Below, one piece after another: positions 1,051 through 38,847 of a DNA stretch of 64,000 nucleotides. Positions within the stretch are counted from its first letter, which is position 1, and each line of letters opens with the position of its first letter. Origin of the DNA: Terebella lapidaria. Lineage: Eukaryota; Annelida; Polychaeta; Terebellida; Terebellidae. The notes beneath the pieces were generated by a model, which saw only the letters and a list, made by a program, of their open reading frames with translations, made no database searches and was not told where the DNA came from. The DNA lies in NCBI GenBank assembly GCA_949152475.1, contig OX424564.1:34656165-34720164 (forward strand), read 5' to 3'. The translations under genes were made by a program, and so were the position numbers.

Positions 1051-4000
1051 ATGGCGATGAACACTTCACCGATACCTGAGCTCACAAAGCATCTTGTGCC
1101 AGCAGAGGAACTCAACTATGGAGAATATGTATACCGAGTCCGTTTGTTTCAAATAGCCTCTAAGAAAGGGTTCAAGTATGAAGCAGATGCATGTCTCCCT
1201 AGGATCATATCTGCACTGTTGAACTCCAGTGGTGGAGTCATTCAGCTGATACCATGTGTCCCACAGAAGCAGCTCGGTGAAAAGGAGTTTGATACATGGC
1301 TGAACACACTAAGAGGCAAACATAACTTCGTTCCAGATGTCGTGTATCAGCACTGTATCTCCGTACAAGAGGGCAACGGGAAATGCATTCTGGTGCACAA
1401 ATCTCCCCAGTTTATTACTACCAATGGGCACATGTTTACCAGAGGCGTGAACGAAAACAGTAAAGCAAAGAGTTTTGACAGCTTGAGAGTACTCATGAGC
1501 CAGGTCCATGTGACTCCAAGAACAAGTGATCTGCCTGTGACTGGGCCCTTCATCTTGGGTGGCCAATGCTCTGAGACAGAAAGTAAATGTCTAGAGTTCA
1601 AACACTACAAACTTGGAACGCTCAAGGATTTATTCATACGGATGCAGAAGTGTCGGGCATTTGAAGCTCTGTTTGGGATGGCCAATCTCCAGGGTGGAGG
1701 GTGCTTGATTCTGGGCATCAGGGAAGATGAACAGAGTAAAGAAAACATCTATGCTGGTATCAACATTGAAGAAACTGAAGAGGACATCTTCAAACGAACC
1801 TTCACGAAATATATGACAGAGACCGAGCAAGGCGAAAAACGAGTTTGGGGTAACCCCAGTGTTGTACCCCAGGAAGGCAAGCACTGGAGGTGTGAATTTG
1901 TCCCTCTCAGTGGCACACAGGAGAGGGCAGTGCTGGTAAATATCCAAGTTTACCAGTGTGAAGGCGGAATGTTTGCACAAAATCCAGAAGCATTTATGAT
2001 AGATGATGGAGGAAACATTTGTCAGGTTTCTTTCCAGGAATGGTACAAACTACATGTACACAAACCAAAGAAAACTAAGAAAAAACCCACTGATACAGGC
2101 TTGCAACAAAGAAAAAAATCCAAGATATCTTCACATAAAAGTAATGTTACAAGTCGTACCACCGAAAGCGAAACAGGCTTGGAAAAGGTCATGTTTGCAG
2201 ACAACACGACCATCTCATTTACCAAACATAGTTCTGCATGGAACTCCCACCAAATTCCGATGAATACAGAACATCCAGTGTTTCCTGAAGCGAGCCAGTT
2301 GTTCCACACTGATTGCCCTGTGAGCTTCAAATTGCCTGATCGAGATGTCATTGAACACGTCCTAGATAACCATGATGTCCTTCCCTACATTGATTCTCAG
2401 ACAGAGGGCTGTGCATTCGGTATCACCATGGACACCTTAGCAGATGTTAAGCATTACTGCCCGAAACCGCAGAATCACGTCATGGACTTGGTTGTTGTGA
2501 ACGAGTCAGCGAGTATCACTGTCTTTGTCATCAGTTCTGGAAGTGTACCAGATCGGAAGTATTCGGTCGTACTTACAAGATTGTTGAAGAAGAGAATTTT
2601 GGAGGCTATACCACCTGATGATAACTACGTGCACCGTGCCATTGTGGTTACATGCCACATCATCAACAAAGACGATATGTCAACAATACGATATGATTCT
2701 CATTGTGGATGGTTCAAGGACATATCAAAATTGTCATTCAGATCCGATTGTGTGGCTTTGCACAGCTTGCTGGCTAACAATGATACGTGTATTGGTCGGT
2801 TCTTGGTTGGAGACGCTGAGATTCATCTCTCCTCAAGTCAGATGAGTACTTTGACAAGAATCACTGGGAATCGATTCTCTATCGTTGAAGGTCCACCCGG
2901 TTGTGGGAAAACAGTTCTGGCTAGATACCTCTGTAAGCACTTTGGCTATGACAAGTCAGCGTACGTGACCTCTTCATCCCAACTGAATATTCGACTAAAA
3001 CATGATGGAATAGACACATTCCTTGCAAATAATGGCGAATCACTTGTGCAACTGCTGGAAGGACCACTGAGAGAGCACAACAAGCAACATGTGATCCTGG
3101 ACGACAACCACACCATACTTTACAGAGAGGAACACCTTAAAGATATTTGTGCGCATTTTGCCTGCCATCGGAAACGTTTGTACGTGTTCCAGGACACAGA
3201 ATTTCAAAATTATCAAGAAATTACGGATTCAGTATCATTCAGGGACTTCTTGAACCGCCATGATAAAACATACGGCACAGTACTTTTCCACACAATGAAT
3301 CAGATACAGAGGAATAGTCAGGTCGTGGCATCTTTTCTGCAAGGCCAAGTGGAAAGACTCAACAAGGTAATTGCCGGTGAACTCAGCTGCATGAATTATG
3401 TGAAGGGAGACGATATCCACATAACACATGTCGCTAACCTGAGAAGCCAGGGGGAAGACAACGGTCTGTTGGAGCATCTCAAGAACCTCGTGGAATGCAA
3501 GTCGGCTGATCCTGAGGGCCCTTACTACACTCCTAAGCATTTCGCTGTTCTAGTTGACGGAGAAGACCCAAGGTCCACTCAGCGTGAGGTGGAGATGTTT
3601 GTGGAACTATTCAAGAGATTCTGGCCTGAGTCTAACGTTCATAATGCAGATATTTTCCCCGTGGAAGGACTGATCGTTGACTCTCTCATGAACTTCACAG
3701 GACTGGATTCGAGGGTTGTTGTCATTGTAGAACCAGCGGAGATACCCAGTCCGAATGATAAAAAAAACATCAAACGTCTGATCGCAAAAGCATCTAGAGG
3801 TGTTGAACGAGTGGATTTCCTATATGAGAAGAACTTGGAGGGCCGCATTGCTGCTGCCATGAAATGTGACAGTGTGCCACAGGAACTAGTGTGAGTAATG
3901 TGATATTTCATTATTCGAAAATCTGAATTCTTAGAAGAAGCATTATGTCTTATTGGGATCTCATATTCGCAGGAAAGAAAAGACACACGAAGATACAGAA

Positions 4001-7320: not shown

Positions 7321-7739
7321 GTGTTAAAGTTGGAATAAATTTTAAAATGAGCCAAATCTAGCATTCTTGTTTGTCACGCAGACTTGAAAGTACATCTCGA
7401 GATTGTCAGGAATAAACAGGAAATATGTACAACTCGACGACAGATAATCAGAAAATCGCCGTTAGCTGTGCATGAAAACTTCGGATAGAGAATTGATCGG
7501 CCTGCATTCATTGCCGGTTGCCACAGTATCTAGACTAATATCAATGACGTCACAAGACTGTGTGTAGAACGCTTTGAGGAAAAAATGGTTGCGGCGCGAG
7601 TTTGAATCTTGATTCTTGCAACTCAATTTAGGCACATAATACATATTTCGGACCAAAATTTACACGAATTTTCATTCTATAGACAAAATATAGCTATTGC
7701 AGATTGAATAAATTTTGTCAATTCTAAAAGTGATTATAG
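7321..7739 (+). repeat. Dispersed repeat R1, copy 2 (interrupted by Gypsy-1)
   Basis: Same landmarks as copy 1, ending 'AAAAGTGATTATAG' at 7739 where Gypsy-1 begins. The repeat resumes for a few bases after the element ('ATAGCTTTA' from 20405), matching copy 1's continuous 'CATAGCTTTA'. This fixes the left border of Gypsy-1 and identifies ATAG as the target-site duplication. Confidence 0.8.
7736..7739. other. Target-site duplication ATAG, left of Gypsy-1
   Basis: ATAG precedes the 5' LTR and is repeated at 20405-20408 directly after the 3' LTR. The uninterrupted repeat copy at about 952-961 has this sequence once. Confidence 0.85.
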
Positions 7740-8081
7740 TGTAACGGTTTTGGGGCGTACCCAAAGGTTTCCCCTAGGTATTTATGTTAGTGTTTTGTGA
7801 TATTATGGTTAAATAACCGTTTATTAGGGTGTATATGTGTTTAAAGGTTCATACGGTTCCGTATTGTTAATGTTTTAAAGGTTTTCCGTCTCGGAACTTA
7901 GTAATTTATGATGTTGGTAAAGCCGGAGACGGATCCGGAGACGGAGACGGAACCGGACACGGAGCCGGAACAATGGAGTACAAAAACGTAATGACGTTAT
8001 TTCCGGAAGGTCATGTGATCAGCCTCGTTTTCGGTTTAAAAGGTGACGTGTCAGCCACTGATTGGTTCTAGAGTGTTTTTA

Positions 8082-8165
8082 GAAATCCGGAAAATATCAG
8101 TGTTTTGGCGGACTATGACGTCACAATAGGTTGGTCACGTGACGTGGGTCTCAGGTCTATAAAAG
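8082..8165 (+). promoter_or_regulatory. Gypsy-1 LTR promoter: CRE, CACGTG and TATA boxes
   Basis: TGACGTCA lies at 8116-8123, CACGTG at 8136-8141 and TATAAAAG at 8158-8165, with a start expected about 25-30 nt downstream. An inverted CCAAT ('GATTGG') lies at about 8060 in the same U3. The layout parallels the two internal promoters of this element. The 3' LTR carries the same sites 11,277 bp further on. Confidence 0.75.
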
Positions 8166-8306
8166 CCCCCGCTTCACAGCGGACGGCGGAGTTGGTGTCC
8201 TGACGTCGACCTGTGCAGACCCCTTCTCCCATAGCAGAGTACTCCCTTGTTCCGGATAGAGTCATCCAGATGATAGCAGTTAAGTCTTCCGACTGTGAAC
8301 TTGGAA

Positions 8307-8312
8307 AATAAA
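8307..8312 (+). terminator. AATAAA polyadenylation signal in the LTR
   Basis: This lies about 145 bp after the TATA box, as expected for the end of R. Its functional copy would be in the 3' LTR at 19584-19589. Confidence 0.6.
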
Positions 8313-9127
8313 CATGAAAACTTCAACCGAGTTGTTTTTCCGTGTTCGTTAGGGAACTGGAAGTTATAATAAAGTTAGTTTCCCGGAAAAGACAGTTATA
8401 CGGAGTAAAGGGAGATAAGACTACAGTCGGTTAAGACCAAGTTGTAACGACGTCTTAGGGTGATCTAAGAACCCAGATCACCGAGGAAGGAGTCGGAGAC
8501 GGAGACGGAGGTGGAAATCAACGGAGCAACTACGGAGGCGGTATCGGACGGAGCAGTTGCAGAGACGGGAACGACGAAGCAGTTGCAGAGGCGGTACCGG
8601 ACGACGGAGTTGCAGAGGCAGTACCTGACGGAGCGGTTGCGGTAACCGGAAGTGGGAACACTTCCGAGATACTCCATTTCAGGTGCAGTCGCAGGTTGCG
8701 GTGAGGCGGAGCCAACCGGAGCAGATTGCAGTGCGGCGGAACCTGGCAGAGCGGTTGCAGTATTCGGAAACGGCAACGTTCCCGGATTCTTTATTCCAGG
8801 CGCAGTCGCAGTTTGCAGTAAGACGGAAAACGACGGAGCTGTTGCAGTAAAGCGGTTTCCCGACGGAGCAGTTGCAGTACCCGGAGACGGAAACGCCTCC
8901 GGATCCTTACTTTACAGGTGCAGTTGCAGATTAGCAGTCGGGCAACGGTTAAGAGGTCCATTCCAGACCACGCTACCAACCTTAGAGACTTCTAGCCGGA
9001 GTTCAACCGTACAACAGTAGCAGTTTCCCGGAGTTTTACCGTTTCAGCTCCGGTTAAACAACAACTCACCCACCTCCCTAGAAAATCGGTTCATCAAGAC
9101 GTCACAGAAGGGTTCAAACCCGTTACA

Positions 9128-9161
9128 ACTTTTTGGTGGCAGCGGTGGGATCATCTGCAGT
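9128..9161 (+). other. Gypsy-1 primer-binding site region and gag leader
   Basis: Directly after the LTR comes 'ACTTTTTGGTGGCAGCGGTG', the TGGTGGCAGCGG type seen after the 5' LTR of many animal gypsy elements. The cognate tRNA was not assigned. The gag ATG follows 34 nt after the LTR. Confidence 0.55.
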
Positions 9162-10454
9162 ATGACTACTAGACGGGGCAAATTGGCGGAACAGCAGCTG
9201 AAGGCAGCCGTGTCGGACACGGAGCAGCCTGTAGGAGCAGTAGGAGCTGAGCCGTTGCAGATGCCGGTTGCGGAAAAGGAAGCGGTTCGTCCTGCCGAGC
9301 GGAAGCTGTTGCAGCCGGAAATGCAGAAAGCAGTTGCAGACGAGCCCCTCCGGGTTCCTCAAGGAGAACAGCCTGCAGAGCAGTTAGCAGAGGCGGAAGT
9401 TAACTTTCCGGACCAGGCTGGCGATCGGGAACCGGATGCGGACCCGGAAGGCGGAGAGAACTTAGTCGACAACCTGACCAGATTATTGGCGACCCAAATG
9501 GAGGTGTTTCAGCAGCACCTGGCAGTAACCGGAAAGCAGCAGCAGGCAGAAGCAGTACAACAGCCAGCACCAAGGGCAGGAGTAGCCAGATTAATGACAT
9601 ACGACGGAACTGATCCGTGGCCGGAATATGAGGCTCACCTCCTTGAATACGCTCGGTACTACCGTTGGACAGCAGAGGAAAAGGCGCTGAACTTATGTGT
9701 CAGTTTGAGGGGTAACGCCCGCAGCATACTACTGGATCTGTCCGCGGAGCAGAGACGCAGCTTTGATACGGTTGTGGCGGCATTAAAACAGCAGTTTTGT
9801 CCGGGGGAGAAAACATTTGTTTTCCAGGCAGAATTGCAGACACGGAAATTGCAGCCGGAGGAGGAGCTGTCCGAGCTGGCCAGAGACATACGGAGCAAGA
9901 CGCGGCTAGCTTACCCAAAAGCAGATCCGGCAACAACAGAAGTGCTCATGAAGATGCATTTCTGCAACAGCCTGACTAACCGAGATATGCGGTTGTCGGT
10001 ATTGAAAAGCCACCCGGAAACGCTGTCGCAGGCCCTGGCTTTCGCTACCGAGTATGAGAGTATCATGAAAACGGACAACAGCAGACCAGCGGAGCGACAC
10101 CGGACGAGGCAGCTGAACACGGAGCCGGAGTGGAGCCAGCAGGTGAACGAATTGCGGAAGCAAGCCGAGCAGACTCAGCAGCAGATGGCGGATCTGATGA
10201 CTCAGGTCAAGGAAGCGGTTAGCCGGCAGCAGCAGCAGCGCAGTTCCCGAGCGGATTTAGAATGTTTCAACTGTGGCCGGAAAGGGCATTTTGCCCGAGA
10301 CTGTAGGCAGCCGAAGCAGCAGCAGCAGCGGCGTCAACCACAACAGCAGCAGTCGCCGCGACAACAGCAGCAGCAGCAGCAGCCGCAGCCGCAGCAGCAG
10401 CAGCAGCAACAATTGCAGCAGCCACGACAGCAGCAGCAGCAGCCGGAAAACTAG
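9162..10454 (+). CDS. gag: Gypsy-1 Gag polyprotein
   Basis: 430 aa. The N-terminal ~130 residues are low-complexity and Glu/Gln/Ala-rich. The capsid-like segment (about residues 145-310) starts at MTYDGTDPWPEYEAHL and has the Ty3/gypsy pattern: a tryptophan-containing helix, then LRGNAR, FCPGEK and LARDIRSKTRLAYP. A CCHC zinc knuckle (CFNCGRKGHFARDC) lies at about 368-381 and should bind the genomic RNA for packaging. The C-terminal ~50 residues are almost pure glutamine encoded by CAG repeats. The frame ends in TAG at 10452, while the pol frame (-1 relative) is already open across the end of gag. No damage is visible. Confidence 0.93.
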   Translation: MTTRRGKLAEQQLKAAVSDTEQPVGAVGAEPLQMPVAEKEAVRPAERKLLQPEMQKAVADEPLRVPQGEQPAEQLAEAEVNFPDQAGDREPDADPEGGENLVDNLTRLLATQMEVFQQHLAVTGKQQQAEAVQQPAPRAGVARLMTYDGTDPWPEYEAHLLEYARYYRWTAEEKALNLCVSLRGNARSILLDLSAEQRRSFDTVVAALKQQFCPGEKTFVFQAELQTRKLQPEEELSELARDIRSKTRLAYPKADPATTEVLMKMHFCNSLTNRDMRLSVLKSHPETLSQALAFATEYESIMKTDNSRPAERHRTRQLNTEPEWSQQVNELRKQAEQTQQQMADLMTQVKEAVSRQQQQRSSRADLECFNCGRKGHFARDCRQPKQQQQRRQPQQQQSPRQQQQQQQPQPQQQQQQQLQQPRQQQQQPEN

Positions 10455-10516
10455 AGCGGGTCGCGGAAAAGGGGAAATCCGGGACCCGGAAGAGAGGACA
10501 CCCCCATAACCGGCAG

Positions 10517-13500
10517 GTGGTTCACGGACCCGGTCCCAGGGGCGAGGTGGGCATGTGTGTGACAGCCAGAGTATGCGGAGAGCCAGTAACGCTGATAATC
10601 GACACCGGCAGCACTGTCACAATGCTCAACCTACAAACCTGGGAACGGATCCGGAAACCCGGAATGAAGCTGAAGCGGTCGCCGATTCGTCTTTCAATGG
10701 TTGACGGAAGTAACATACGGACACATGGCCGGAAAGAACTCCCACTCAACATCGCAGGAGTAGCTGAGACCGTGACGTTCGAGATTGCAGACTGTGAAGA
10801 CGAAGGAATACTGGGGATGGATTTCATCCGTTCCCGAGTATCCGGCATAAACTTCGACCGGATGACCATGCAGATGGGCAGCCAGGAGGTGTTCCTCACC
10901 ATGTTCGAGCAGACCAGGGAGCCGTTTCCGATCAACGCTGTAGCAGATTACCAAATTCCGCCGGAAACGGAACAGCTGATTATAGGACAAGCAGAGAGTG
11001 TCCGTGAAGCAGAAGGAGTACTAGAAATGCCGCAGGAGCCTACGGAGAAAAGACCTTGGCTGATCGGGAGAACTTTATCCCGGATAAAGCAAGGAACAGT
11101 CCCGGTTCGAGTGATCAACGTGATGGCAGAGCCGGTAATCATCAAGAAAGGAGCGCAGTTGGCGACGATGACCACCTTAGCAGCCGGTTGCAGTGTTGTG
11201 CCGTTGGCGGAGCGGAGCCGGAAGGTGCAGATTTCCACGGAGTCGGAGTCCGGGCGGAATTGGAGCGGGTACGAGAAGCTGCGGCAGTTAGCAGAGCAGA
11301 CCCAGGATGCAGTGCCGAGTCATTTCCGCGAGAGAGTAACCGACCTCCTATTTCGGAATAAGCTGACCTTCAGTAATGATGCCGGAGAACTGGGGCAGAC
11401 CAACGAGGTACAACATCAGATAAACACGGGCAGTCACCGGCCGATTAAGCAGCCAACCAGACGAATTCCGCCAGACAAGAGAGAGCTGGTGAGCAGTCTG
11501 ATTCAGGAGATGAAAGACAAGAACGTCATTGAAGAAAGTAGCAGTCCGTGGGCTTCACCGATTGTCCTTGTGAAGAAAAAGGATGGGACCACCCGGTTCT
11601 GCGTCGATTACCGGCGGTTAAATGCAGTCACGGAGAAAGATGCTTATCCGTTGCCGAGAATAGACGACACCATAGCAGCCTGTGCAGACGCTAAATGGTT
11701 CTCCACTCTCGACCTGACCAGTGGCTACTGGCAGGTCGGGATGGATGAAGACGCCCGGAAAAAGTCGGCCTTCTGTGTTCCTGGCGGCCTTTACCAGTTC
11801 AAAGTGATGAGTTTCGGCTTGTGCAATGCTCCGGGTACGTTCGAGCGGTTGATGGAGAAGGTGCTAGGCGGTTTGTCCTGGAAGACCTGCCTCATATATC
11901 TGGACGACATCATAGTCTACAGCAAGACCCTGGAGGATCACATCCGTGATCTTCAGGAGGTGTTCAGCAAGCTGAGAGAGGCAGACCTAAAAGTCAAACC
12001 GTCAAAATGCAAGTTCTTCCAGCCGGAGGTGTCTTTCCTAGGTCACATAGTCGGCAGAGACGGTATCCGCACCGACCCGGCAAAAACGGAGGCAGTACGG
12101 AAGTGGCGGACACCCACCAACCTGACGGAGCTGCGCAGTTTTCTGGGACTTTGCTCCTATTACCGGAAGTTCGTGCCGAAGTTCTCCGAGATTGCAGCGC
12201 CGCTGAATCACTTGACGGAAAAAGGGGTGCCGTTCCGGTGGCAGACGGAGCAAGAACAGGCATTTGCAGAGCTGAAGAACCGCCTAGTATCGGCACCGAT
12301 ACTCGGGTACCCAAGGGAGCAAGGCCGATATATCCTGGACACGGACGCCAGTGACACCGGGCTGGGAGCAGTACTGTCACAGAAGCAGGGCAACCAGGAG
12401 CGGGTGATAACCTACTTGAGCCGCAGCCTAACCAAAGAAGAACGGAGATACTGTGTCACCCGGAAGGAGCTCCTGGCGGTTGTGTTTGCGGTACAGAAGA
12501 ATAAGCAGTACTTGCTGGGACGACACTTCCTTCTTCGCACGGATCATGGCAGTCTGACCTGGCTTATGAATTTCAAGGAGCCCCAGGGGCAGGTAGCCCG
12601 GTGGATTGAGCTCCTGAGTGAGTTTCATTTCGACATCGAACATCGTCCGGGGCGAATCCATAATAATGCGGACGCCTTGTCCAGATCCCCATGCAGCCAA
12701 TGCGGAAAAATCGACTGGAAACAAGCCAAGATAGATGCCTGGAACTACGGAGAAAGAATCCGGCAGACACGAAGTGAAGAAACTCCTCAGCCCAAGCCAA
12801 AGAAGGGGGGACGCCGGAAGCGGTCAAGGAGATCGGGCGGAGAAGCAGAACTGACGGAGGAAGCAGTCCCAAGGAAGGCGGTTGCAGTAGCGGAGAAAGC
12901 AGCGTCCCGGAAGCCGGTTGCGGTTGCGGTGACAGAGGAAGCAGTCCCAAGGAAGGCGGTTGCAGTAGCGGAGAAAGCAGCGTCCCGGAAGCCGGTTGCG
13001 GTTGCGGTGACAGAGGAAGCAGTCCCAAGGAAGGCGGTTGCAGTAGCGGAGAAAGCAGCGTCCCGGAAGCCGGTTGCGGTTGCGGTGACGGAGGAAGCAG
13101 CGTCCCGGAAGCCGGTTGCGGTTGCGGTGACGGAGAAAGCAGCGTCCCGGAAGCCGGTTGCGGTTGCGGTGACGGAGAAAGCAGTGTCCCGGAAGCCGGT
13201 TGCGGTTGCGGTGACGGAGAAGGCAGTTCCAGGAAAAGCGGATGCGGTTGCAGAGCAGATTAGGCTGGCGGAAAATGCGGACCAGGATACTGTGCTGGGG
13301 CAGAAATATCGACCAGATGATTTGTGGAGAATGCAGCAAGCAGAACCTTGGTACTCACTGGTGACGTCGCTGATCGACGGGAGCGGTACAGGTGGCAGTG
13401 CAGACTTTTCCAGTATGAGCAGCGAGGAGAAAGTGCTGTACGGGATGCGGAAGACCTTGCTGAAAGTCGACGGAGTAGTCTACCGGAAATGGAGAACGGC

Positions 13501-14716
13501 AGAAGGAACCAGCCGAATGCAGTTAATAACCCCGAAGGAGCTGAGACAGGAGATTTTCCGTCTGGCCCACCAGAGCCGGACGGGAGGACACCTCGGAAGC
13601 AGAAGGATGGCGGCTAGCATTCGGAGGCGGTATTTCTGGCCGGCTATGATGCGGGACATAAAGCAGTGGGTGCTGAGCTGTGACGAATGTGCGTCAAGAA
13701 GTATGCAGAACTTGAAACGATCTCCGATGCAGAAATACCGGGTTGGAGCGCCCATGGAGAGGGTGGCAATGGACGTGATGGGTCCGTTACCTAAATCCAC
13801 CCGGGGGAACCGGTACATCTTAGTAATCGGCGATTACTTCACCAAGTGGGTAGAGGCTTACCCGATGCCGAATCAGGAAGCGGTGACGGTTGCGGACATA
13901 TTCGTCAACCAGTTTGCAGCGCGGTACGGTATCCCGATGGAGATACACACCGACCAAGGCAGAAATTTCGAGTCCGACTTGCTGAGAAATGTTTGCAGAA
14001 TCCTGGGGATTCACAAGACACGGACGACCGCTTTCCGACCTCAGTCGGACGGTTTCATCGAGCGATTCAACCGGACGCTGCAGCAGATCTTGAGCCTGTA
14101 CGTAAGCGAGCGGCAGACCAACTGGGATCAGCTAGTTCCGTTGGCGATGGCAGCTTACCGGAGTACCCCGCAGGAGACAACCGGGCAGAGTCCCAACTTG
14201 CTGATGCTGGGCAGAGAAGTCAACACTCCGGTAGAGTTACTGATTGGCAGACCGCCGGGAGAATCAACGGCAGAAGTAACAGAGTATGGCAGTCAGCTCC
14301 GGGAGCGACTAGAGGCGGTATACAAGGCAGTTCGAGCGAAATCTGGCAGAGAAATGGAACAGCAGAAGAAGCTGTACGACCGGAGGAAGGTCAACAATCA
14401 GTTCCAGCCAGGAGACCGAGTGTGGATGGCGGTCAAAACACGGAAGAAGGGCAAAGCTCCCAAGTTGCAGAGGAAGTGGAGCGGTCCAAAGCTAGTGCTG
14501 AGCAGATTTACCGACGTGACCTACGAGATTGCAGAGAGTGAAACTCGACAGAAGGTGGTTCACTTCGATTTGCTGAAACCGTATAATGGCGTCAAGCATC
14601 CGAGATGGATGAAGCGGAGAATGGCGGATTCCTGGAGGCAGACGGAGCCGCCAAAGCAGAGTAGTGTTCCGGAGACGGAACCGACGGTCTCTGAGTCGGA
14701 TACGGACTCGGAGTAA
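10517..14716 (+). CDS. pol: Gypsy-1 Pol polyprotein (protease-RT-RNase H-integrase)
   Basis: 1,399 aa from the first start-like codon (GTG at 10517), but the frame is open upstream into gag and has no ATG there, so translation by -1 frameshifting from gag is likely. Protease has LIIDTGSTVTML (DTG about 29-31). RT has FCVDYRRLN, FGLCNAPGTF and the catalytic YLDDIIVYS (about 461). RNase H has LDTDASDTGLGAVLSQ (about 607) and LLGRHFLLRTDHGSL. A repeated spacer follows (about 779-900). Integrase has an HHCC finger (HQSRTGGHLG...CDECASR, about 1018-1060), then DDE residues in MDVMGPL, HTDQGRNFES and FIERFNRT, followed by a GPKLV-type C-terminal domain. The reading frame is intact, so the element could be autonomous. 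Confidence 0.95.
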   Translation: MVHGPGPRGEVGMCVTARVCGEPVTLIIDTGSTVTMLNLQTWERIRKPGMKLKRSPIRLSMVDGSNIRTHGRKELPLNIAGVAETVTFEIADCEDEGILGMDFIRSRVSGINFDRMTMQMGSQEVFLTMFEQTREPFPINAVADYQIPPETEQLIIGQAESVREAEGVLEMPQEPTEKRPWLIGRTLSRIKQGTVPVRVINVMAEPVIIKKGAQLATMTTLAAGCSVVPLAERSRKVQISTESESGRNWSGYEKLRQLAEQTQDAVPSHFRERVTDLLFRNKLTFSNDAGELGQTNEVQHQINTGSHRPIKQPTRRIPPDKRELVSSLIQEMKDKNVIEESSSPWASPIVLVKKKDGTTRFCVDYRRLNAVTEKDAYPLPRIDDTIAACADAKWFSTLDLTSGYWQVGMDEDARKKSAFCVPGGLYQFKVMSFGLCNAPGTFERLMEKVLGGLSWKTCLIYLDDIIVYSKTLEDHIRDLQEVFSKLREADLKVKPSKCKFFQPEVSFLGHIVGRDGIRTDPAKTEAVRKWRTPTNLTELRSFLGLCSYYRKFVPKFSEIAAPLNHLTEKGVPFRWQTEQEQAFAELKNRLVSAPILGYPREQGRYILDTDASDTGLGAVLSQKQGNQERVITYLSRSLTKEERRYCVTRKELLAVVFAVQKNKQYLLGRHFLLRTDHGSLTWLMNFKEPQGQVARWIELLSEFHFDIEHRPGRIHNNADALSRSPCSQCGKIDWKQAKIDAWNYGERIRQTRSEETPQPKPKKGGRRKRSRRSGGEAELTEEAVPRKAVAVAEKAASRKPVAVAVTEEAVPRKAVAVAEKAASRKPVAVAVTEEAVPRKAVAVAEKAASRKPVAVAVTEEAASRKPVAVAVTEKAASRKPVAVAVTEKAVSRKPVAVAVTEKAVPGKADAVAEQIRLAENADQDTVLGQKYRPDDLWRMQQAEPWYSLVTSLIDGSGTGGSADFSSMSSEEKVLYGMRKTLLKVDGVVYRKWRTAEGTSRMQLITPKELRQEIFRLAHQSRTGGHLGSRRMAASIRRRYFWPAMMRDIKQWVLSCDECASRSMQNLKRSPMQKYRVGAPMERVAMDVMGPLPKSTRGNRYILVIGDYFTKWVEAYPMPNQEAVTVADIFVNQFAARYGIPMEIHTDQGRNFESDLLRNVCRILGIHKTRTTAFRPQSDGFIERFNRTLQQILSLYVSERQTNWDQLVPLAMAAYRSTPQETTGQSPNLLMLGREVNTPVELLIGRPPGESTAEVTEYGSQLRERLEAVYKAVRAKSGREMEQQKKLYDRRKVNNQFQPGDRVWMAVKTRKKGKAPKLQRKWSGPKLVLSRFTDVTYEIAESETRQKVVHFDLLKPYNGVKHPRWMKRRMADSWRQTEPPKQSSVPETEPTVSESDTDSE
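12852..13240 (+). repeat. In-frame tandem repeat between RNase H and integrase
   Basis: The marker TGAC(A/G)GAGGAA or TGACGGAGAA starts at 12852, 12930, 13008, 13086, 13128, 13170 and 13212: three 78-bp units (26 codons), then three 42-bp units (14 codons). The protein repeats EEAVPRKAVAVAEKAASRKP and shorter (E/K)AASRKPVAVAVT blocks. All lengths keep the pol frame. Confidence 0.9.
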
Positions 14717-15465
14717 AGCCGCAGAGGACGCAGAAATATTAGAAGACGGAGTGAGCTGTAGAGCAGGAGAAGGAGATAGCTGAGACCCTGGTAAAACGTT
14801 GAGTTCCGGCAGAGAGCGACCGCAAGAAGTCGGAGCAGTGAGCAAGTGCTGGTTCCGGAAACAGGGCGGAGAAAGGAAGCAGAGCGGAAAGCGGTGCAGA
14901 GACCGGATAGAGACATCCTAGAGGTTCTGACTGGGTTGAGCACATAGTCAACCAGTCCAGGGTAGCGGCCAGGGGTCCAGAAGAACCTGGGTTAGCGGTC
15001 TAGTATCTCCAGAGAAGCAGCTACACGTCTTCCGTATTCAGAGAATTAAGACGGAAAAGTTTTCCGGCTGTAGACATCCAACCGGAGTTTCCACTTAGCA
15101 GAGACAGCAAACCGGCTGCAGATCGACAGAAGCGGTGAAACATCATTCCAGATAGGAAGGGCCCTCCTTCTGGACAAGAATGTATGCAGTTTCCAGTGTC
15201 GACAAGCAGTAATACCAGTGAGCAGATATGCAGTTGACGAAGCAGTACAGATGGCGGAAACGCCCAACTTGCAGTCTAGATGTTCGTCTGAGAGGCAGAT
15301 TCAACTGGCTGAGACTCTTTTCAACCTTCCTGATGGCAGAGATACTTCAAAATTGCAGATACTTCGCTCGGAGAAGCAGTTGAAAGGGAGCCGGAAAAAC
15401 CCGGAGAAGCCGGTTGAGCCGGAGACGGACACCTCTCGGTTAACGGTTGAGTTTTTGCATAATTG
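14717..15465 (+). other. Gypsy-1 spacer after pol, no convincing ORF
   Basis: About 750 bp with the same purine-rich style as the rest of the element. A 99-codon frame at 15218-15517 has no recognisable features and overlaps the next promoter, so I do not call it. This may be the pol 3' untranslated region or a decayed extra gene. Confidence 0.5.
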
Positions 15466-15535
15466 TGACGTCACTCCTGAGGCAGCCAATCAGCGTGGAG
15501 CTTTTCAAATCACGTGAGCAGAAAGGGTATAAAAG
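15466..15535 (+). promoter_or_regulatory. Internal promoter 1 of Gypsy-1, upstream of accessory ORF A
   Basis: TGACGTCA at 15466-15473, CCAAT at 15486-15490, CACGTG at 15511-15516 and TATAAAAG at 15528-15535 lie within 70 bp. These are the elements found in the LTR U3. The expected transcript would start near 15560 and its first substantial ORF is at 15780. Confidence 0.65.
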
Positions 15536-15779
15536 GGCCTTGAAATCGGGCTCTGACAGCAGTTGGAGAGCAGACCTCGAGCTGTGCACATCGCAGACAA
15601 AGTTTGGCGGAATCGAATCAAGTCCAGCATTTTCCGGCAGCGACAGATTTTGCAGTGAAAAACGACTAAGTGTTTCCCGGAAGACCACCAGTCCGGAGAA
15701 GCGGTGCAGAGGCGGCGCAGAAGCGGTGCAGTAAAAGCGGTGCAGTAGATCGACAATTTCAGTTTCCCGGCCTTCCGGA

Positions 15780-16565
15780 ATGGCCTACTCGGCGTTCCTT
15801 GATAGACAAGATCGCGGCCGGAGCAGAGATTGGGCAACCCCGCAGCCACTGGATTATAGCCAGCTGCCACTGGATTATAGCCGGCTGTGTAAGCGGTGTG
15901 ACCGGATGTTTGAGAGTGCGAGGGACCGGAGACGGCATGTGTGCCCAGCCCAGAGATTTCATTGCTGTTTGTGTGCCTTCTATGCCAACCGGGCGAACGA
16001 CCTTAGGAGGCATCTCCGGGAGATGCACGGGTGGAAGTACCCTTCCGGGAACCGTCCTCCTCAGGACGAGGCCACCCTCAACCATGTGGGAACCTTTGAT
16101 TCGGCCTGGCGGGGAACAGCAACGCAGTCCCGGCATAAGCGTTTCCGGCGATACTGCACCCGGTCACCAAGGGAGAATACAGTTCCGGGAACTTATGCGG
16201 ACCAGCTTCCGTTTGGCCCTGACTGGGATGCCGGAGCAGCCGCCCCCATCGGACAACCGGAGCAGTTAGATCTCCCGGAATGGGTTCCGGATCCACAGGG
16301 CTGTCTCCGGGCCGCCGACGACGCTCCTCCGGAAAGCTGGGATCAGGAGATGGAGCTGATTGCAGAGGCGGTCAGAGCAGTTATGCCGGATCAAGCAGAC
16401 GATTGGGAGAAACCCGAAGAGGAAGATCAGCCGGTGGAAGACTGGGAGGCAGAGATCCGGGTGTGGGAATATAAACCACCTTCTCCCACTTCGGAGCCGG
16501 AGACGGATGAGTCGGAGTATGAGACGGCAGATGAGGACTCCTGGACGGAAGCGAAGGCAGTGTGA
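15780..16565 (+). CDS. Gypsy-1 accessory ORF A: C2H2 zinc-finger acidic protein
   Basis: 261 aa, downstream of integrase in the position where env would lie in other elements, but with no signal peptide, transmembrane segment or other envelope feature. A canonical finger CCLC-x12-H-x4-H (HCCLCAFYANRANDLRRHLR, then EMH) lies at about residues 62-85. It is preceded by a degenerate one (CKRCDRMFESARDRRRHVC, about 39-57). The C-terminal half is acidic, with many Trp/Asp/Glu and tandem 'EPETDESEYETADED'-like runs. The start ATG lies about 245 nt after the TATA box of internal promoter 1. The fingers suggest nucleic-acid binding, possibly regulation or targeting of the element; this is inference. 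A 40-base poly(A) run lies 98 nt after the stop. Confidence 0.72.
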   Translation: MAYSAFLDRQDRGRSRDWATPQPLDYSQLPLDYSRLCKRCDRMFESARDRRRHVCPAQRFHCCLCAFYANRANDLRRHLREMHGWKYPSGNRPPQDEATLNHVGTFDSAWRGTATQSRHKRFRRYCTRSPRENTVPGTYADQLPFGPDWDAGAAAPIGQPEQLDLPEWVPDPQGCLRAADDAPPESWDQEMELIAEAVRAVMPDQADDWEKPEEEDQPVEDWEAEIRVWEYKPPSPTSEPETDESEYETADEDSWTEAKAV

Positions 16566-16663
16566 AAGTAGACGGAGGCGGTTGGCAGTATAGCGGTTGA
16601 CGGAGGCGGTTGGCAGTTTGGCGGAGACGGAAGAAGCGGTGGCAGTTAGCAGCAACAACACGG

Positions 16664-16703
<40 letters not shown>
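16664..16703 (+). repeat. Internal poly(A) tract, 40 bases
   Basis: An uninterrupted run of 40 A between accessory ORFs A and B. It lies 98 nt after the ORF A stop and 51 nt before the CCAAT box of internal promoter 2. Exact length may be affected by sequencing of homopolymers. Confidence 0.9.
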
Positions 16704-16706
<3 letters not shown>

Positions 16707-16753
16707 TATTTATCCAAGAAGACCACCAGGAGGAGTTGCAGTTTGCTGAGCAG

Positions 16754-16804
16754 CCAATCATCAAGCAGATAAGCCAGTCACGTGACTTCCAGAGACTATA
16801 AAAG
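16754..16804 (+). promoter_or_regulatory. Internal promoter 2 of Gypsy-1, upstream of accessory ORF B
   Basis: CCAAT at 16754-16758, CACGTG at 16779-16784 and TATAAAAG at 16797-16804. CACGTG-to-TATA spacing (18 bp) is nearly the same as in promoter 1 (17 bp). The context 'AGCCAATCA' is also shared. ORF B starts 78 bp after the TATA box. Confidence 0.65.
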
Positions 16805-16881
16805 GGGCAGTTAGCTGTTACCGGATGCAGAAGGCAGTTTGCTGTAGCTGAGTCAACATCGATACAAAGCAGAGAATCAGA

Positions 16882-18741
16882 ATGCCGAAAGTAAAGACAA
16901 CACCCCGCAAGCCCCGCCCTCACCGGTGTGGAGACTGCAACCTAGAGTTCAAGAGCAAGCACACGTTGCTCCGGCATGTCACGGAGCAGCACACAAGTGA
17001 AGTCACCGTCTTCGCCTGTCCGCAGTGTGACCATTGGAGCAGACGGAAAGAGGGAACACAGAAGCATCTGCAGTCCCGGCACGCAATGGACGCAAACCCG
17101 ATTCGACTGAGGGTGGGCAGAGAGCAGTTTGAGGAGAAAAGCCTCCGGTCCAAGATGACCCCACGGAAAAGCAAGAAGCCGGTAACACGGCATGACCAGT
17201 TGTCGGATACGGAGTCGGAGTCGGGAGGTTCGGTTTCGTCCCGGACCCGGTACCGTTCCGGTACCCAGTCGGTGGCCGCACTAGCAGCCGACGTTTCGTC
17301 CACGGAGGCGGAGAGCAGTTCGGAAGAGGAAGCGGAGCTGAAAATCATGGCAAGTGAAGACGAGTTGCAAGAACCAGGAGACCCGAAGCCGGTTAAGCCG
17401 CCTGTGACCCGGAGTTCTTCCCGGAACACCTCCCGGAAAAACAGCCCTGACTCATCTCGAGGTACCGGAGCAGATCGAGACCGCGGAAAGAAGCGGAGTC
17501 GCAGCCGTTCGCCGGATAAATCCGGACGCCATCAACGCCGAGAATATAGGAAGGAGAGCCCGGAGCGAGCCAAGGACCGAGGCGGAGAACGTGGTCGAGA
17601 GGAGAAACGACACACCCCACCCAAGTCTTCCGGAGGCAGCGTCAAAGGAAAAGGCAAGGGGGTGTATGACTACAAGTTCCGGCTGTTGGAGGAAGGTTCC
17701 AGCGGAGCAACGGCAGAAGTGGGAGTGGCGGACATTGCGGAAATGCAGAGCCGAGACGATGAGGAAGACCTTTTCCGGAGTCCACCTCCGAGAACAACTA
17801 GCAGTGGCAGAGCAGTGAGCAGTGTGATTGTCCGGCCCGGAGGCGGAGCAGAAATCAGATCCAGCGGCCGAGCCGATAGCAGAGCAGATAGCCGAGCCGA
17901 TAGCAGAGCAGATAGAGCAGATAGCAGAGCAGATAGCCGAGCGGACAGCAGACCCATTGGCAGATCAGGAGGCAGACCGGAGACCAAAACGGAAGGCGGA
18001 AACCGGAGCAGAGCTGGCAGTGAGACGGAGACCCGAGGATCCTCGGAGCGAACTTTGCCGGCAACCATTCAAGCAGTAGCAGGAAGCAGAACCAGTTCAG
18101 CGGCTAGGGATGACGGAATAGAGTCTTCCGCGTCTGAACGAAGCCATGCGGACGTGCAGAGAGCCCGGAGGAGTATCCTGGTAGATCAAGCCAGAGCTAC
18201 ACCCGGAATCCTGTCTCCGGTGGAAACCCGACCTCGACAGTCTTCCAGTGAGCGGTCCGGAAGGAGCCAAGTCCGAGCACCAACCCAGAGTCCACCCTAC
18301 ACATTCTACCCGTTTGGCGGTCCTTCAACTCAACCGTGTCCGTCACATTGTTTCCCGGTGAATATTGGGGGACGGAGCGCTTCCGTCTTTGCACCCGCAG
18401 TCCCGGAGCACGCTAGATACTATGCAGTACGTTGGGGACCGGAGCAGTGGGGGCCAGCCGAGATGAGAGACTCCGGCGTCTACGTGGAGATCATGGAGCA
18501 GAGAGAGTCACCGTTTGGTCTCGTCCCGACCCGTCAGATCGTCCGGATTCCAGATTGGTCCATCCGGGACGAACGCCTCAGGAATGGGTTCTACGTCCCG
18601 CCCCAGTGGAGCCTCCATGATCCGGATCTTCTCCCGGTTGATGCCAGAGGGACAAGCTTCGGACGACCGTTGGTACCACAGACCTTTCCACCGCGTCCGC
18701 CGTCGGGGAGCAGTTCGCGCCGTGATACTGGTGGGCAGTAG
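16882..18741 (+). CDS. Gypsy-1 accessory ORF B: two C2H2 fingers, RS-rich region and novel C-terminus
   Basis: 619 aa. Two canonical C2H2 fingers follow a basic N-terminus: CGDC-x12-H-x4-H (about 17-38) and CPQC-x12-H-x4-H (about 48-69), ending in HLQSRH. Then come an acidic/Ser region, an arginine-serine segment (KKRSRSRSPDKSGRHQRREY, about 200-245), a (RADS)n tandem (about 328-356), and a C-terminal region of ~120 residues rich in Trp/Tyr/Pro (ARYYAVRWGPEQWGP; IVRIPDWSIRDERLRNGFYV) that I do not recognise. RS segments are typical of nuclear RNA-binding and splicing proteins, so a nuclear nucleic-acid-binding role is reasonable but unproven. It has no envelope features. The frame is intact over 1.86 kb. 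It ends 275 bp before the 3' LTR and would use the LTR polyadenylation signal. Confidence 0.75.
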   Translation: MPKVKTTPRKPRPHRCGDCNLEFKSKHTLLRHVTEQHTSEVTVFACPQCDHWSRRKEGTQKHLQSRHAMDANPIRLRVGREQFEEKSLRSKMTPRKSKKPVTRHDQLSDTESESGGSVSSRTRYRSGTQSVAALAADVSSTEAESSSEEEAELKIMASEDELQEPGDPKPVKPPVTRSSSRNTSRKNSPDSSRGTGADRDRGKKRSRSRSPDKSGRHQRREYRKESPERAKDRGGERGREEKRHTPPKSSGGSVKGKGKGVYDYKFRLLEEGSSGATAEVGVADIAEMQSRDDEEDLFRSPPPRTTSSGRAVSSVIVRPGGGAEIRSSGRADSRADSRADSRADRADSRADSRADSRPIGRSGGRPETKTEGGNRSRAGSETETRGSSERTLPATIQAVAGSRTSSAARDDGIESSASERSHADVQRARRSILVDQARATPGILSPVETRPRQSSSERSGRSQVRAPTQSPPYTFYPFGGPSTQPCPSHCFPVNIGGRSASVFAPAVPEHARYYAVRWGPEQWGPAEMRDSGVYVEIMEQRESPFGLVPTRQIVRIPDWSIRDERLRNGFYVPPQWSLHDPDLLPVDARGTSFGRPLVPQTFPPRPPSGSSSRRDTGGQ

Positions 18742-19016
18742 TCGTCGCAAGTCGTCGCAAGTCGTCGCAAGTCAAGTCGGCGCAAGGAGAAGAAAGAAGA
18801 ACCGTTTCCCGGATTCTAGTATAATTAAGAGTTAAAAAGTGGGAAACGGAACAAGCAAGATATCCGGGTACAGTGACGGTAAACTAGTTAAGAGATACCA
18901 GTACCCGGATCACGGAGACAAGTTGTGTTTGATTTTACGGACAGTTTAACGGTTGACAATTTGTATATATGTGATATTGTTCTGTTCGGGACGAACAGAG
19001 TCTAAGGAAGGGGGAG
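18742..19016 (+). other. Gypsy-1 3' spacer with polypurine tract
   Basis: A short triplicate of GTCGTCGCAA lies at about 18740-18770. The polypurine tract 'AAGGAAGGGGGAG' ends at 19016 against the 3' LTR and would prime plus-strand DNA synthesis. Confidence 0.75.
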
Positions 19017-20404
19017 TGTAACGGTTTTGGGGCGTACCCAAAGGTTTCCCCTAGGTATTTATGTTAGTGTTTTGTGATATTATGGTTAAATAACCGTTTA
19101 TTAGGGTGTATATGTGTTTAAAGGTTCATACGGTTCCGTATTGTTAATGTTTTAAAGGTTTTCCGTCTCGGAACTTAGTAATTTATGATGTTGGTAAAGC
19201 CGGAGACGGATCCGGAGACGGAGACGGAACCGGACACGGAGCCGGAACAATGGAGTACAAAAACGTAATGACGTTATTTCCGGAAGGTCATGTGATCAGC
19301 CTCGTTTTCGGTTTAAAAGGTGACGTGTCAGCCACTGATTGGTTCTAGAGTGTTTTTAGAAATCCGGAAAATATCAGTGTTTTGGCGGACTATGACGTCA
19401 CAATAGGTTGGTCACGTGACGTGGGTCTCAGGTCTATAAAAGCCCCCGCTTCACAGCGGACGGCGGAGTTGGTGTCCTGACGTCGACCTGTGCAGACCCC
19501 TTCTCCCATAGCAGAGTACTCCCTTGTTCCGGATAGAGTCATCCAGATGATAGCAGTTAAGTCTTCCGACTGTGAACTTGGAAAATAAACATGAAAACTT
19601 CAACCGAGTTGTTTTTCCGTGTTCGTTAGGGAACTGGAAGTTATAATAAAGTTAGTTTCCCGGAAAAGACAGTTATACGGAGTAAAGGGAGATAAGACTA
19701 CAGTCGGTTAAGACCAAGTTGTAACGACGTCTTAGGGTGATCTAAGAACCCAGATCACCGAGGAAGGAGTCGGAGACGGAGACGGAGGTGGAAATCAACG
19801 GAGCAACTACGGAGGCGGTATCGGACGGAGCAGTTGCAGAGACGGGAACGACGAAGCAGTTGCAGAGGCGGTACCGGACGACGGAGTTGCAGAGGCAGTA
19901 CCTGACGGAGCGGTTGCGGTAACCGGAAGTGGGAACACTTCCGAGATACTCCATTTCAGGTGCAGTCGCAGGTTGCGGTGAGGCGGAGCCAACCGGAGCA
20001 GATTGCAGTGCGGCGGAACCTGGCAGAGCGGTTGCAGTATTCGGAAACGGCAACGTTCCCGGATTCTTTATTCCAGGCGCAGTCGCAGTTTGCAGTAAGA
20101 CGGAAAACGACGGAGCTGTTGCAGTAAAGCGGTTTCCCGACGGAGCAGTTGCAGTACCCGGAGACGGAAACGCCTCCGGATCCTTACTTTACAGGTGCAG
20201 TTGCAGATTAGCAGTCGGGCAACGGTTAAGAGGTCCATTCCAGACCACGCTACCAACCTTAGAGACTTCTAGCCGGAGTTCAACCGTACAACAGTAGCAG
20301 TTTCCCGGAGTTTTACCGTTTCAGCTCCGGTTAAACAACAACTCACCCACCTCCCTAGAAAATCGGTTCATCAAGACGTCACAGAAGGGTTCAAACCCGT
20401 TACA
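19017..20404 (+). repeat. Gypsy-1 3' LTR
   Basis: 1,388 bp, the same length as the 5' LTR and without differences in the parts compared. It is followed by the target-site duplication ATAG at 20405-20408. Promoter and AATAAA sites recur at +11,277 bp. Confidence 0.95.
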
Positions 20405-20445
20405 ATAGCTTTAAGTTTCGACTATCCCTGCAAGCGAAGATATTG

Positions 20446-27057: not shown

Positions 27058-27951
27058 GGCAGCGTGGAGCTGCCAAGTGGTTTTATTTCTTAATTGGTAA
27101 ATACAGATTAGTAATTTGCAAGTACAGATTAGTAGTACGCAAGTACAGACTAGTAACTCGTATACGAATTAGTAACTCGTATATACGAATTAGTAACTCG
27201 TTTATACGGATTAGTAACTCGTATACACGAATTATTAACTCGTAAATACGAATTAGTAATTCGTATATATATGAATTATTAACTCGTATATACGAATTAG
27301 TAATTCGTACATACGGTTTACTAAATCGTATATACGAATTACTAGCTCGTATAAACGAATTATTGACTCGTATAAACGAATTATTGACTCGTACTTACGA
27401 ATCATATCAACTCGAATATACGAATTAGTAACGCATGCATACGGACTAATAACTCGTATATACGAATTAGTAACTTTTTTTTTACGAATTAGTAACGCGT
27501 ATATACGGACTAATAACTCGTATATACGAATCAGTAACTCGTATTTACGAATTAGTAAAGCCTACATACGAATTACTAACTCGTATATACAAATTCATGA
27601 ACCTCGAGTATGCCAACAGTCATGGAGGATCCAGCCGAGTTATTAATTCGTATATACGGGTTACTAATTCGTATGTACGAGTTAATAATTCGTATATACG
27701 AGTTACTAATTCGTATATACGAGTTACCGATTGGTATATACGAATTACTAATCCGTGAATACGATTTATTATTCCGTATGTACGATTTAATAATTCGTAT
27801 ATACGAGTTGTTAATACGTACATACGAGTTAACAATTCGTATGTACGAGTTACTAATTCGTATATACGATTTATTAATTCGTATGTACGAGTTCCAAATC
27901 TGTATTTTCAATTTAAATAATAAAATCATTTGGCAGTTCCACGCTGCCATG
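27058..27951. mobile_element. Foldback element built from palindromic ~20-bp units
   Basis: The terminal inverted repeats are GGCAGCGTGGA(G/A)CTGCCAA at the left and its complement at about 27930-27951. The left arm (about 27100-27590) is an array of units with core TCGTATATACGA, itself a perfect palindrome, separated by ATTAGTAAC. The right arm (about 27640-27895) has the same units inverted (GTTACTAAT). The two arms meet around 27590-27640, so single strands could fold into a hairpin of about 400 bp arms. Open frames across the array are repeat artefacts. No transposase is present. Confidence 0.85.
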
Positions 27952-28462: not shown

Positions 28463-29545
28463 ACGAGACAATCAGAGATTGCAGACCCTCGCCCTTCAGA
28501 TTTAGTCACTAAAATTAGGCGATAATTGAGAGTTTTGGTCTTAAGACCATCGGTTGTACGCCATACGATTGGGAATTGGCCAAAGAAAAATACAAAAATA
28601 GGTTACATTTAATATTGATTAGAACCGGAGTTATAGTCAATTATGTGATTTTATTTTTTAAGTTGCCATGGCAACCGTTTTCACCCGATTTTGGCAAAAT
28701 TTGAAAGGGACTGAGCCATTACCATAGCACTCCAGCCCTATAAATTTCAAATCTATCGAACCGTTTGCCTTTGAGTTATGAGCGCAGACATTTGCACTGA
28801 AACGTCGCTGGCCAAAAATAACCGAAATCGTGAAACCCCCCAATTTTTCGACATCCGGCGATAATGGAGAGTTTTCGTCGTACGACCATCGGTCGTACAC
28901 CAAACGATCGGGAATTGGCCAAAAAAAAATACAAAAATAGTTGGAAAAATTAATATCAAATAGATCCGGAGTTAGAGCCAATTATGTGATTTTCTTTTTT
29001 TCCGTTGCCATGGCAATCGTTTTCATCCGATTTTGGCGAAATTCTGAAGGGAATGAGCCAGCACCATAGCACTTTTGCCCTATAAATTTCAAATCGATCG
29101 GGTCGTTTGCCTTTGAGTTATGAGCGCAGACATTTGCACTGAAACGTCGCTGGCCAAAAAAAATTGAAACCGTGACCCCCAATTTTTCGACATCGGGCGA
29201 TAATGGAGAGTTTTGGTCGTACGACCACGGGCCATATATCAGATGATCAGGAATTGACCATAAAAAAATACAAAATTAGTCAGAAAAATTTATCTTGAAT
29301 AGAACCGGAGTTATGGTCAATTATTGATTTTTACATTTTCCGTTGCCATGGCAACAGTTTTTGACCAGATTTGAGGAGGACCGAGCCACTGAGATACCGC
29401 TTCATCCCTATAAGTTTCATATTGATCGGACCATTCTTTTTTGAGATATGCGCGCGGACAGACAGACAGACAAACAAACAGACATACAAACGGACAGACC
29501 CAATTGCAATACCCTCTGCCCCTATCGGGGCGAGGGTAATAATAC
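28463..29545. repeat. ~340-bp tandem repeat (three units) nested in the left arm of IR-1
   Basis: The unit start GATAATGGAGAGTTTTGGTC (with variants) occurs at about 28521, 28859 and 29199. Each unit then has AAAAATACAAAA, an 'ACCGGAGTTA' block, 'GTTGCCATGGCAA', 'CCCTATAAATTTCAAAT', 'GAGTTATGAGCGCAGACA' and 'AACGTCGCTGGCC'. It ends in a GACAGACAAACA-rich stretch and 'ACCCTCTGCCCC...GGGGCGAGGGT'. Complementary ACCCTCGCCC sequences flank it, suggesting a separate mobile repeat that landed in the arm later. Confidence 0.75.
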
Positions 29546-37976: not shown

Positions 37977-38090
37977 TTGGTGCCGTGACCAGGATCAGTC
38001 CGACGGCGTTCCATCCCAGCCTAAGGTCACAGTGTTGTAGCCTCCTTCGTCCCTGGGGATCCCTCGCTCCTCTGGGACAACTCGACAAGG

Positions 38091-38845: not shown

Positions 38846-38847
38846 CA

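Follow-up and report, generated by a model that had tools for sequence, protein, structure and literature searches.

Accessory regulatory genes with an internal promoter of their own are a mark of the foamy viruses. Basal activity of the foamy virus internal promoter starts a loop in which the output of the long terminal repeat (LTR) is then raised by Tas, a protein that binds DNA through its N-terminal part and activates through its C-terminal part (PMC7390438; this and the other papers are cited for the portions of text available). In the Cer1 element of C. elegans, CERV is produced from a spliced mRNA, acts in RNA export, and may have a C4-type finger (PMC10309623). Accessory genes at the 3' end are already known from other LTR elements. 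Here we describe a stretch of 64,000 nucleotides (nt) from the annelid Terebella lapidaria (contig OX424564.1, positions 34,656,165 to 34,720,164 of the forward strand), referred to as the window, in which a gypsy retrotransposon carries two open reading frames (ORF A and ORF B) encoding C2H2 zinc fingers between integrase and the 3' LTR. An earlier note on this DNA had put the arrangement forward as an undescribed system; that wording is too strong, given these precedents. The promoter-like modules of the present element nevertheless lift it above the ordinary accessory-ORF case. With a probability of roughly 45%, we interpret the segment behind integrase as a regulatory block of two genes, each on its own promoter-like module, that would regulate the expression of the young, complete Ty3/gypsy element in which it lies.

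The element extends from 7740 to 20404 and is a complete, very young Ty3/gypsy LTR retrotransposon (Table 1). Its two LTRs show no differences over 1388 nt and ATAG stands on either side; given the absence of LTR differences, the insertion is therefore recent. The class assignment is based on the TG...CA LTR pair with its target duplication, on the CCHC knuckle of gag, and on the pol order protease, reverse transcriptase, RNase H, integrase. The pol frame is already open from 10307 and thus overlaps gag. The LTR identity, the duplication and the open gag and pol bear out the claim of the earlier note that the element is intact and young, and the same holds for its account of the accessory genes: the two frames of 261 and 619 codons, the finger make-up (one canonical and one degenerate finger in ORF A, two canonical fingers in ORF B), the lack of envelope features, and the RS-rich segment and Pro-rich C-terminus of ORF B were all recovered. 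ORF A has a net charge of -18 over the whole protein and ORF B one of +27; ORF B contains 33 RS/SR dipeptides, and 24 prolines fall within residues 471-619. By hydropathy neither protein has a transmembrane segment (19-residue maxima of 0.46 for ORF A and 0.81 for ORF B). N-glycosylation motifs number none in ORF A and two in ORF B, and furin-like R-x-K/R-R motifs two and one, respectively. An envelope or transmembrane role for the two ORFs was rejected on hydropathy, the element lacking an errantivirus-like env, and ORF translations and hydropathy revealed no env-like ORF between integrase and the 3' LTR.

We examined whether the fingers and the frames exceed what composition would yield. With a strict C2H2 pattern (C-x2-4-C-x12-H-x3-5-H) and 5000 residue shuffles of each protein as the null, the single finger of ORF A was matched in number by 5 of the 5000 shuffles and the pair of ORF B by none. 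The degenerate finger of ORF A, upstream of the canonical one at residues 37-55, was identified by alignment with ORF B. The two proteins are alike in the fingers only (E 0.003 in a single comparison); homology between them beyond the fingers was rejected, only short and weak matches being found there. For the frames, Markov sequences of order 1, 2 and 3 (1000 per order) were modelled on the 4298-nt 3' internal segment and read on the plus strand. An ORF of 619 codons appeared in none of the 3000, nor did two ORFs of at least 261 codons, and the longest ORF reached at least 261 codons in 3, 7 and 15 of 1000 sequences for the three orders (25/3000 overall). A codon score trained on gag and pol was highest in the own frame of the six for both ORF A (0.116) and ORF B (0.020); these values lie below those of gag (0.391) and pol (0.257), which are themselves the training set.

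The promoter-like modules provide the evidence that the two genes may be expressed on their own. The window contains four copies of TCACGTGA, all with TATAAAAG 8-22 nt downstream: one in each LTR (the 3' copy at 19412/19435), one in module A and one in module B. Four sites with this order and spacing were reached by 0 of 100 shuffles (mean 0.01). Note that the independent sites number three, because the two LTR sites copy one another. As a guard against post hoc choice of the motif, a scan was made of all exact 8-mer pairs at the same spacing in the repeat-masked element, with the LTR counted once. The TCACGTGA/TATAAAAG pair was the sole one at three or more separate places, and any such pair arose in 0/200 order-2 and 2/200 order-3 random sequences. 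Local alignments were also made between 180-nt windows anchored on the TATA, and compared to 1000 shuffles and to random windows of the element. The score for the LTR and module A was reached by none of the shuffles and none of 899 windows, and that for modules A and B by none of the shuffles and none of 888 windows, although the windows of the A-B and LTR-B comparisons had been picked for holding the motif, which favours those two. Module A and the LTR have TGACGTCA in common and are identical at 22 of 28 nt beginning 32-33 nt past the first T of the TATA, the region in which transcription would be expected to begin; modules A and B have CCAAT at an equal 25-nt distance from CACGTG. The module sites include what we take to be an E-box, a cyclic AMP response element (CRE) and a CCAAT box. 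The earlier note had its region begin at 15466, the first base of TGACGTCA in module A, and made no mention of the modules. The zinc-finger recognition code tentatively points to GCGG-like sites for the fingers; the element contains four copies of GCGGTGCAG, three of them within the tandem repeat that lies in the leader of ORF A, and none occurs elsewhere in the window.

We grade as likely that module A was copied from the LTR promoter, the LTR-A alignment beating all shuffles and all windows tried, though blastn is silent; module B, whose alignment with the LTR does not do so, may have arisen likewise. With an LTR-like module before each gene, ORFs A and B could be transcribed independently of gag-pol. 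On the plus strand of the element AATAAA is confined to the LTRs, so transcripts from all three promoters could share the end in the 3' LTR, and those of A and B would stop at its poly(A) signal; the variants ATTAAA (9782) and AGTAAA (14712, 15730, 16890 and in the LTRs) also occur on this strand. No ATG lies between the TATA of module A and the start of ORF A.

These features suggest a working model. Modules A and B share the palindrome-TATA core of the LTR promoter, and a promoter of like kind before each finger gene suggests that the element makes regulators of its own expression. ORF A, with zinc fingers followed by an acidic tail, would most likely bind DNA and activate the promoters of the element that encodes it; nine of its tiles (starts 155-163) satisfy equation 3 of PMC10550315, a published rule for acidic activation domains. 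ORF B, with two fingers and a basic, RS-rich middle, would most likely act on element chromatin or RNA (insulation, splicing/export or packaging), work that it fits better because it is basic and RS-rich. Host factors acting on the internal promoters would cause the regulators to be made first, and the regulators would then raise LTR output in the style of the foamy virus internal promoter and Tas. The intact element, its ORFs, fingers and promoter motifs and the position of AATAAA are read directly from the sequence; transcription from the modules, and nuclear action, DNA binding and activation by the proteins, are predictions. The suggestion of the earlier note that the element encodes its own pair of nucleic-acid-binding regulators gains from the fingers, from the absence of transmembrane segments and above all from the LTR-like modules, but no direct evidence separates control of transcription, counter-silencing and steering of integration. 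It is a more doubtful proposition that the LTR core promoter, copied into the 3' region, drives two self-encoded C2H2 regulators, an activator of acidic character and its basic, RS-rich partner, apart from gag-pol, in a complex-retrovirus-like programme that evolved independently. If the element does have the foamy virus layout, the DNA-binding proteins of a retrotransposon, their target sites and their promoters could be tested together, with a bearing on how elements escape host silencing.

A number of observations weigh against a regulatory block with its own promoters. Taken alone, TCACGTGA occurs four times in the window against 0.98 expected, a count that 3 of 100 shuffles reach, and the motif pair, its length of 8 nt and the range of spacings had all been chosen with the sites already in view. 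The LTR-B alignment is not strong, its score being reached by 5/1000 shuffles and 11/891 windows, and the 22/28 identity was also reached by 2 of 400 random window pairs. With the LTR as query and 14717-19016 as target, blastn at E 0.05 listed none of the shared modules, its sole match being a 26-nt CGGAGACGG-rich stretch, and self-comparison of this segment did not report module A against module B. ATG-free windows of 240 nt make up 16% of those in gag-pol, and transcript B would be expected to start close to an ATG at 16825. On the protein side, the Pfam C2H2 matches of both ORFs all fall under the cut-off (the best, zf-Di19 in ORF B, at 19.4 bits compared to 27.5). The activation-domain signal of ORF A is weak because gag also satisfies the rule (7 tiles between 71 and 79) and the stricter original rule is positive in none of the five proteins. 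AlphaFold models made without an alignment were uninformative (mean predicted local distance difference test scores of 42.7 and 38.0 for the two ORFs). Finally, no relative of ORF B was found in the protein database among the 7988 candidates sharing most words, or among 224 candidates for residues 470-619 alone.

The main functional rival is CERV-like action. According to this explanation, A and B would be translated from spliced transcripts of the LTR and would target the RNA of the element, in its export, packaging or protection, and the TATA-like modules would be minor or decayed. The ORF3s of LTR retrotransposons typically come from spliced messages (PMC5408684), and the basic charge and RS/SR dipeptides of ORF B would suit such a role. 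Splice signals, as judged by simple patterns, offer little to this explanation: a single weak donor-like match is found in 8186-10600, and no acceptor-like site of more than 60% pyrimidine is found near either ORF start (15560-15790 and 16560-16890). In addition, the promoter modules would be needless there, yet theirs is the sole such recurrent pair in the element. We consider this explanation unlikely.

To the same degree unlikely is a second explanation, that A and B are captured passengers, two host zinc-finger genes transduced along with their own host promoters and of no benefit to the element. CRE, CCAAT, E-box and TATA are common in host promoters, and the module sites appear to us of just this kind. 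The silence of blastn on the LTR-module similarity and the resemblance of the ORF B fingers to CTCF-type pairs also point in this direction, but the alignment of module A with the LTR promoter beyond all shuffles does not. The A40 tract after ORF A is reminiscent of a processed transcript, although no AATAAA is found upstream of it in the cassette, and processed-gene capture was rejected as its source for this reason. A 17-nt repeat with 88% identity is present at 15675 and 16713, the second copy beginning 9 nt beyond the A-tract.

Word composition was used to distinguish resident from captured sequence. Compared to the rest of the window, the element uses AGCAG at 10.6, CGGAG at 10.1 and CCGGA at 7.7 times the rate; GACGGAG is also among the words enriched in 7740-19016, in coding and non-coding parts alike. 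The 5-mer log-odds for this element signature were 0.523 for ORF A and 0.667 for ORF B, compared to 0.183-0.615 for held-out pieces of pol, -0.408 for a Schlafen-like ORF of the window, 0.035 for the ORF at 58485-60209, and 0.031-0.205 for a second gypsy element. The finger parts scored lower, within the pol range (0.257 for the first 90 codons of ORF A, 0.210 for the first 75 of ORF B). The signature is shared by the non-coding 14717-15460 (0.528) and 16566-16881 (0.416), though not by 18742-19014 (0.047). Because ORFs A and B carry the signature as much as pol does, they look long resident in the element, which is against a passenger origin.

Database searches also have a bearing on capture. 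For ORF A, one relative was confirmed among 1468 candidates in the protein database: P0001, a 177-residue protein from an 868-nt ENA contig, is identical to residues 82-261 apart from two conservative changes and a three-residue gap that keeps the frame. P0001 thus shows a further copy or allele in which the 3' part of ORF A is in frame. For ORF A, then, the earlier note's alternative of a one-off captured fragment does not apply, P0001 encoding the last 177 residues in frame, and a partial second copy that keeps the frame is not what passengers of no benefit would lead one to expect. Outside the window a single protein matched ORF A and none matched ORF B, again at odds with host genes, in a candidate-limited search bounded by the host coverage of the database. 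No relatives of pol, ORF A or ORF B were confirmed in viral contigs, nor of pol or ORF A in prokaryote genome contigs, both collections being described as without eukaryote genomes.

A third explanation, which we regard as distinctly improbable, is that the fingers tether the integration complex or build a CTCF-like insulator on the element. CTCF fingers are the best solved matches of both finger pairs. For ORF B the top match, among the best 60 of 113 distinct sequences at E up to 10, is CTCF 2ct1 over a single stretch (E 2.5e-8); for ORF A the match is weak (CTCF, E 0.0012). Furthermore, a Pfam search of pol at E up to 0.1 gave no chromodomain. The ORF B pair is, however, also matched significantly by chains of PRDM9 and the Ikaros family, and the top rank of CTCF is probably due in part to its many fingers and entries. 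A single insertion is uninformative on site preference. As for chance open frames with accidental finger motifs in a purine-rich, stop-poor segment, the GC content of 55% and the codon scores below those of gag and pol could be cited, but the ORF lengths, finger counts and database matches all exceed chance and a second source, P0001, is in frame, making this the least credible explanation by far.

Table 1. Features of the Ty3/gypsy element, in window coordinates.
Feature	Position	Strand	Basis or detail
Target-site duplication ATAG	7736-7739 (left), 20405-20408 (right)	+	Direct sequence reading
5' LTR (TGTAACGG...CCGTTACA)	7740-9127	+	1388 nt, same as 3' LTR
LTR promoter module: TGACGTCA 8116, TCACGTGA 8135, TATAAAAG 8158	8116-8165	+	Motif scan
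AATAAA signals in LTR: 8307, 8368 (3' LTR copies 19584, 19645)	8307-8373	+	Signal scan
Primer-binding-site-like stretch TGGTGGCAGCGGTGGGAT	9134-9151	+	3' of 5' LTR, sequence reading
gag, CCHC knuckle, Q-rich C-terminus	9162-10454	+	ORF translation, Pfam
pol (protease, reverse transcriptase, RNase H, integrase), single open frame	10553-14716	+	ORF translation, Pfam
Promoter-like module A: TGACGTCA 15466, CCAAT 15486, TCACGTGA 15510, TATAAAAG 15528	15466-15535	+	Motif scan, pair scan
ORF A, 261 residues	15780-16565	+	Fingers within residues 37-83; C-terminal half acidic
Canonical C2H2 finger of ORF A (residues 62-83)	15963-16028	+	Strict pattern
A40 tract between the two cassettes	16664-16703	+	Pure A, 3' of ORF A and 5' of module B
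Promoter-like module B: CCAAT 16754, TCACGTGA 16778, TATAAAAG 16797	16750-16804	+	Motif scan, pair scan
ORF B, 619 residues	16882-18741	+	C2H2 finger pair; middle RS-rich, C-terminus Pro-rich
Fingers of ORF B at residues 16-37 and 46-67	16927-17082	+	Strict pattern, solved-structure match
ORF B R/S/G-rich middle, residues 201-470	17482-18291	+	Composition; includes 12-nt tandem repeat 17870-17952
Polypurine tract	19004-19016	+	Sequence reading
3' LTR	19017-20404	+	LTR-LTR comparison

Some further features of the element were noted. The stretch TGGTGGCAGCGGTGGGAT at 9134-9151 presumably fits the 3' end of a tRNA-Leu. Between RNase H and integrase, pol contains an in-frame tandem repeat with 42-nt and 78-nt periods (12852-13256) that codes for AVAV-rich repeats. 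A nested element or internal LTR pair was rejected as an account of the 3' region, based on the lack of any self-match within 14717-19016 at E 0.05 and of inverted repeats of at least 14 nt in 14700-19030.

The window also contains a second gypsy-type element (37235-46388), which has two 300-nt LTR stretches that are 99% and 98% alike and a pol split over several frames. It is the second in the window with a 3' accessory ORF (43609-45351, 580 residues, between integrase and the 3' LTR, no family match above the cut-off), and it is without the TCACGTGA-TATA module. A 947-residue ORF at 1051-3894 has a weak match to Schlafen AlbA_2, below the cut-off, and AAA/P-loop matches (PF00004 just above the cut-off), and is likely a host Schlafen-like gene. 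At 46774-50349, 492-nt inverted arms that are 87% complementary lie 2592 nt apart, and a 172-nt tandem repeat overlaps the left arm; this unit is possibly a DNA transposon. The adjoining 50350-51207 on the minus strand holds what we take, by eye from the translation, to be a non-LTR-like reverse transcriptase fragment. Tandem arrays are found at 27151-27890 (21-nt unit, about 35 copies) and at 28518-29361 (339-nt unit, 2.5 copies). Scans of the 64-kb window with Rfam (gathering threshold) and for tRNA genes gave no matches.

How does this locus compare to the described systems? Several have extra genes behind pol but differ in what those genes encode. Bdelloid rotifer LTR elements have likewise captured extra ORFs downstream of pol (PMC5408684); their ORF3s are of GDSL, DEDDy, coiled-coil, transmembrane or env types, and the terms 'zinc finger' and 'promoter' have 0 occurrences in that paper. 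The plant Tat/Athila and Tekay elements similarly have extra ORFs of unassigned role, some with nuclear localisation signals, but belong to plant lineages, and the available portions of PMC11728184 and PMC2774666 describe no C2H2 pair or LTR-like internal promoter for them. Zebrafish DrFV-1 likewise combines gag and pol with several additional ORFs for which no relatives are known; it differs in being spumaretrovirus-like, with three ORFs, and no fingers are stated in the portion of PMC2774666 available. With CTCF-type C2H2 pairs, ORF B shares finger spacing and linker, but it has only two fingers and no match was reported outside them. Searches of open-licence papers for gypsy elements carrying C2H2 accessory ORFs or internal promoters showed no such case among the titles and opening lines of abstracts listed.

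Two systems come closer in function. The closest animal precedent we found is Cer1 CERV, the product of a 3' ORF that is not an envelope gene and that controls the element encoding it (PMC10309623, in the portion available), although CERV comes from a spliced mRNA, its possible finger is C4-type rather than C2H2, and 'promoter' has 0 occurrences in that paper. The foamy viruses resemble our element in having an internal promoter that precedes 3' accessory genes (PMC7390438), represented here by promoter motifs only. Tas and ORF A have the same order of parts, the DNA-binding part, here fingers, being followed in ORF A by an acidic half, and feedback on LTR and internal promoter is possible in both. 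The foamy LTR and internal promoter are little related in sequence (PMC7390438), whereas here the modules share sites with the LTR. The spumavirus internal promoter is held within env; the present element, by contrast, has no env-like ORF, and it also differs from the foamy viruses in having two internal modules instead of one, in its C2H2 fingers, and in being known from sequence alone. By analogy, the element may work like the foamy virus or Cer1 systems without necessarily belonging to either; it has no env, and its splice signals are weak by simple patterns. If the regulatory interpretation is true, circuits of the foamy type, with accessory regulators on an internal promoter, would arise outside the retroviruses as well, in a Ty3/gypsy element without env.

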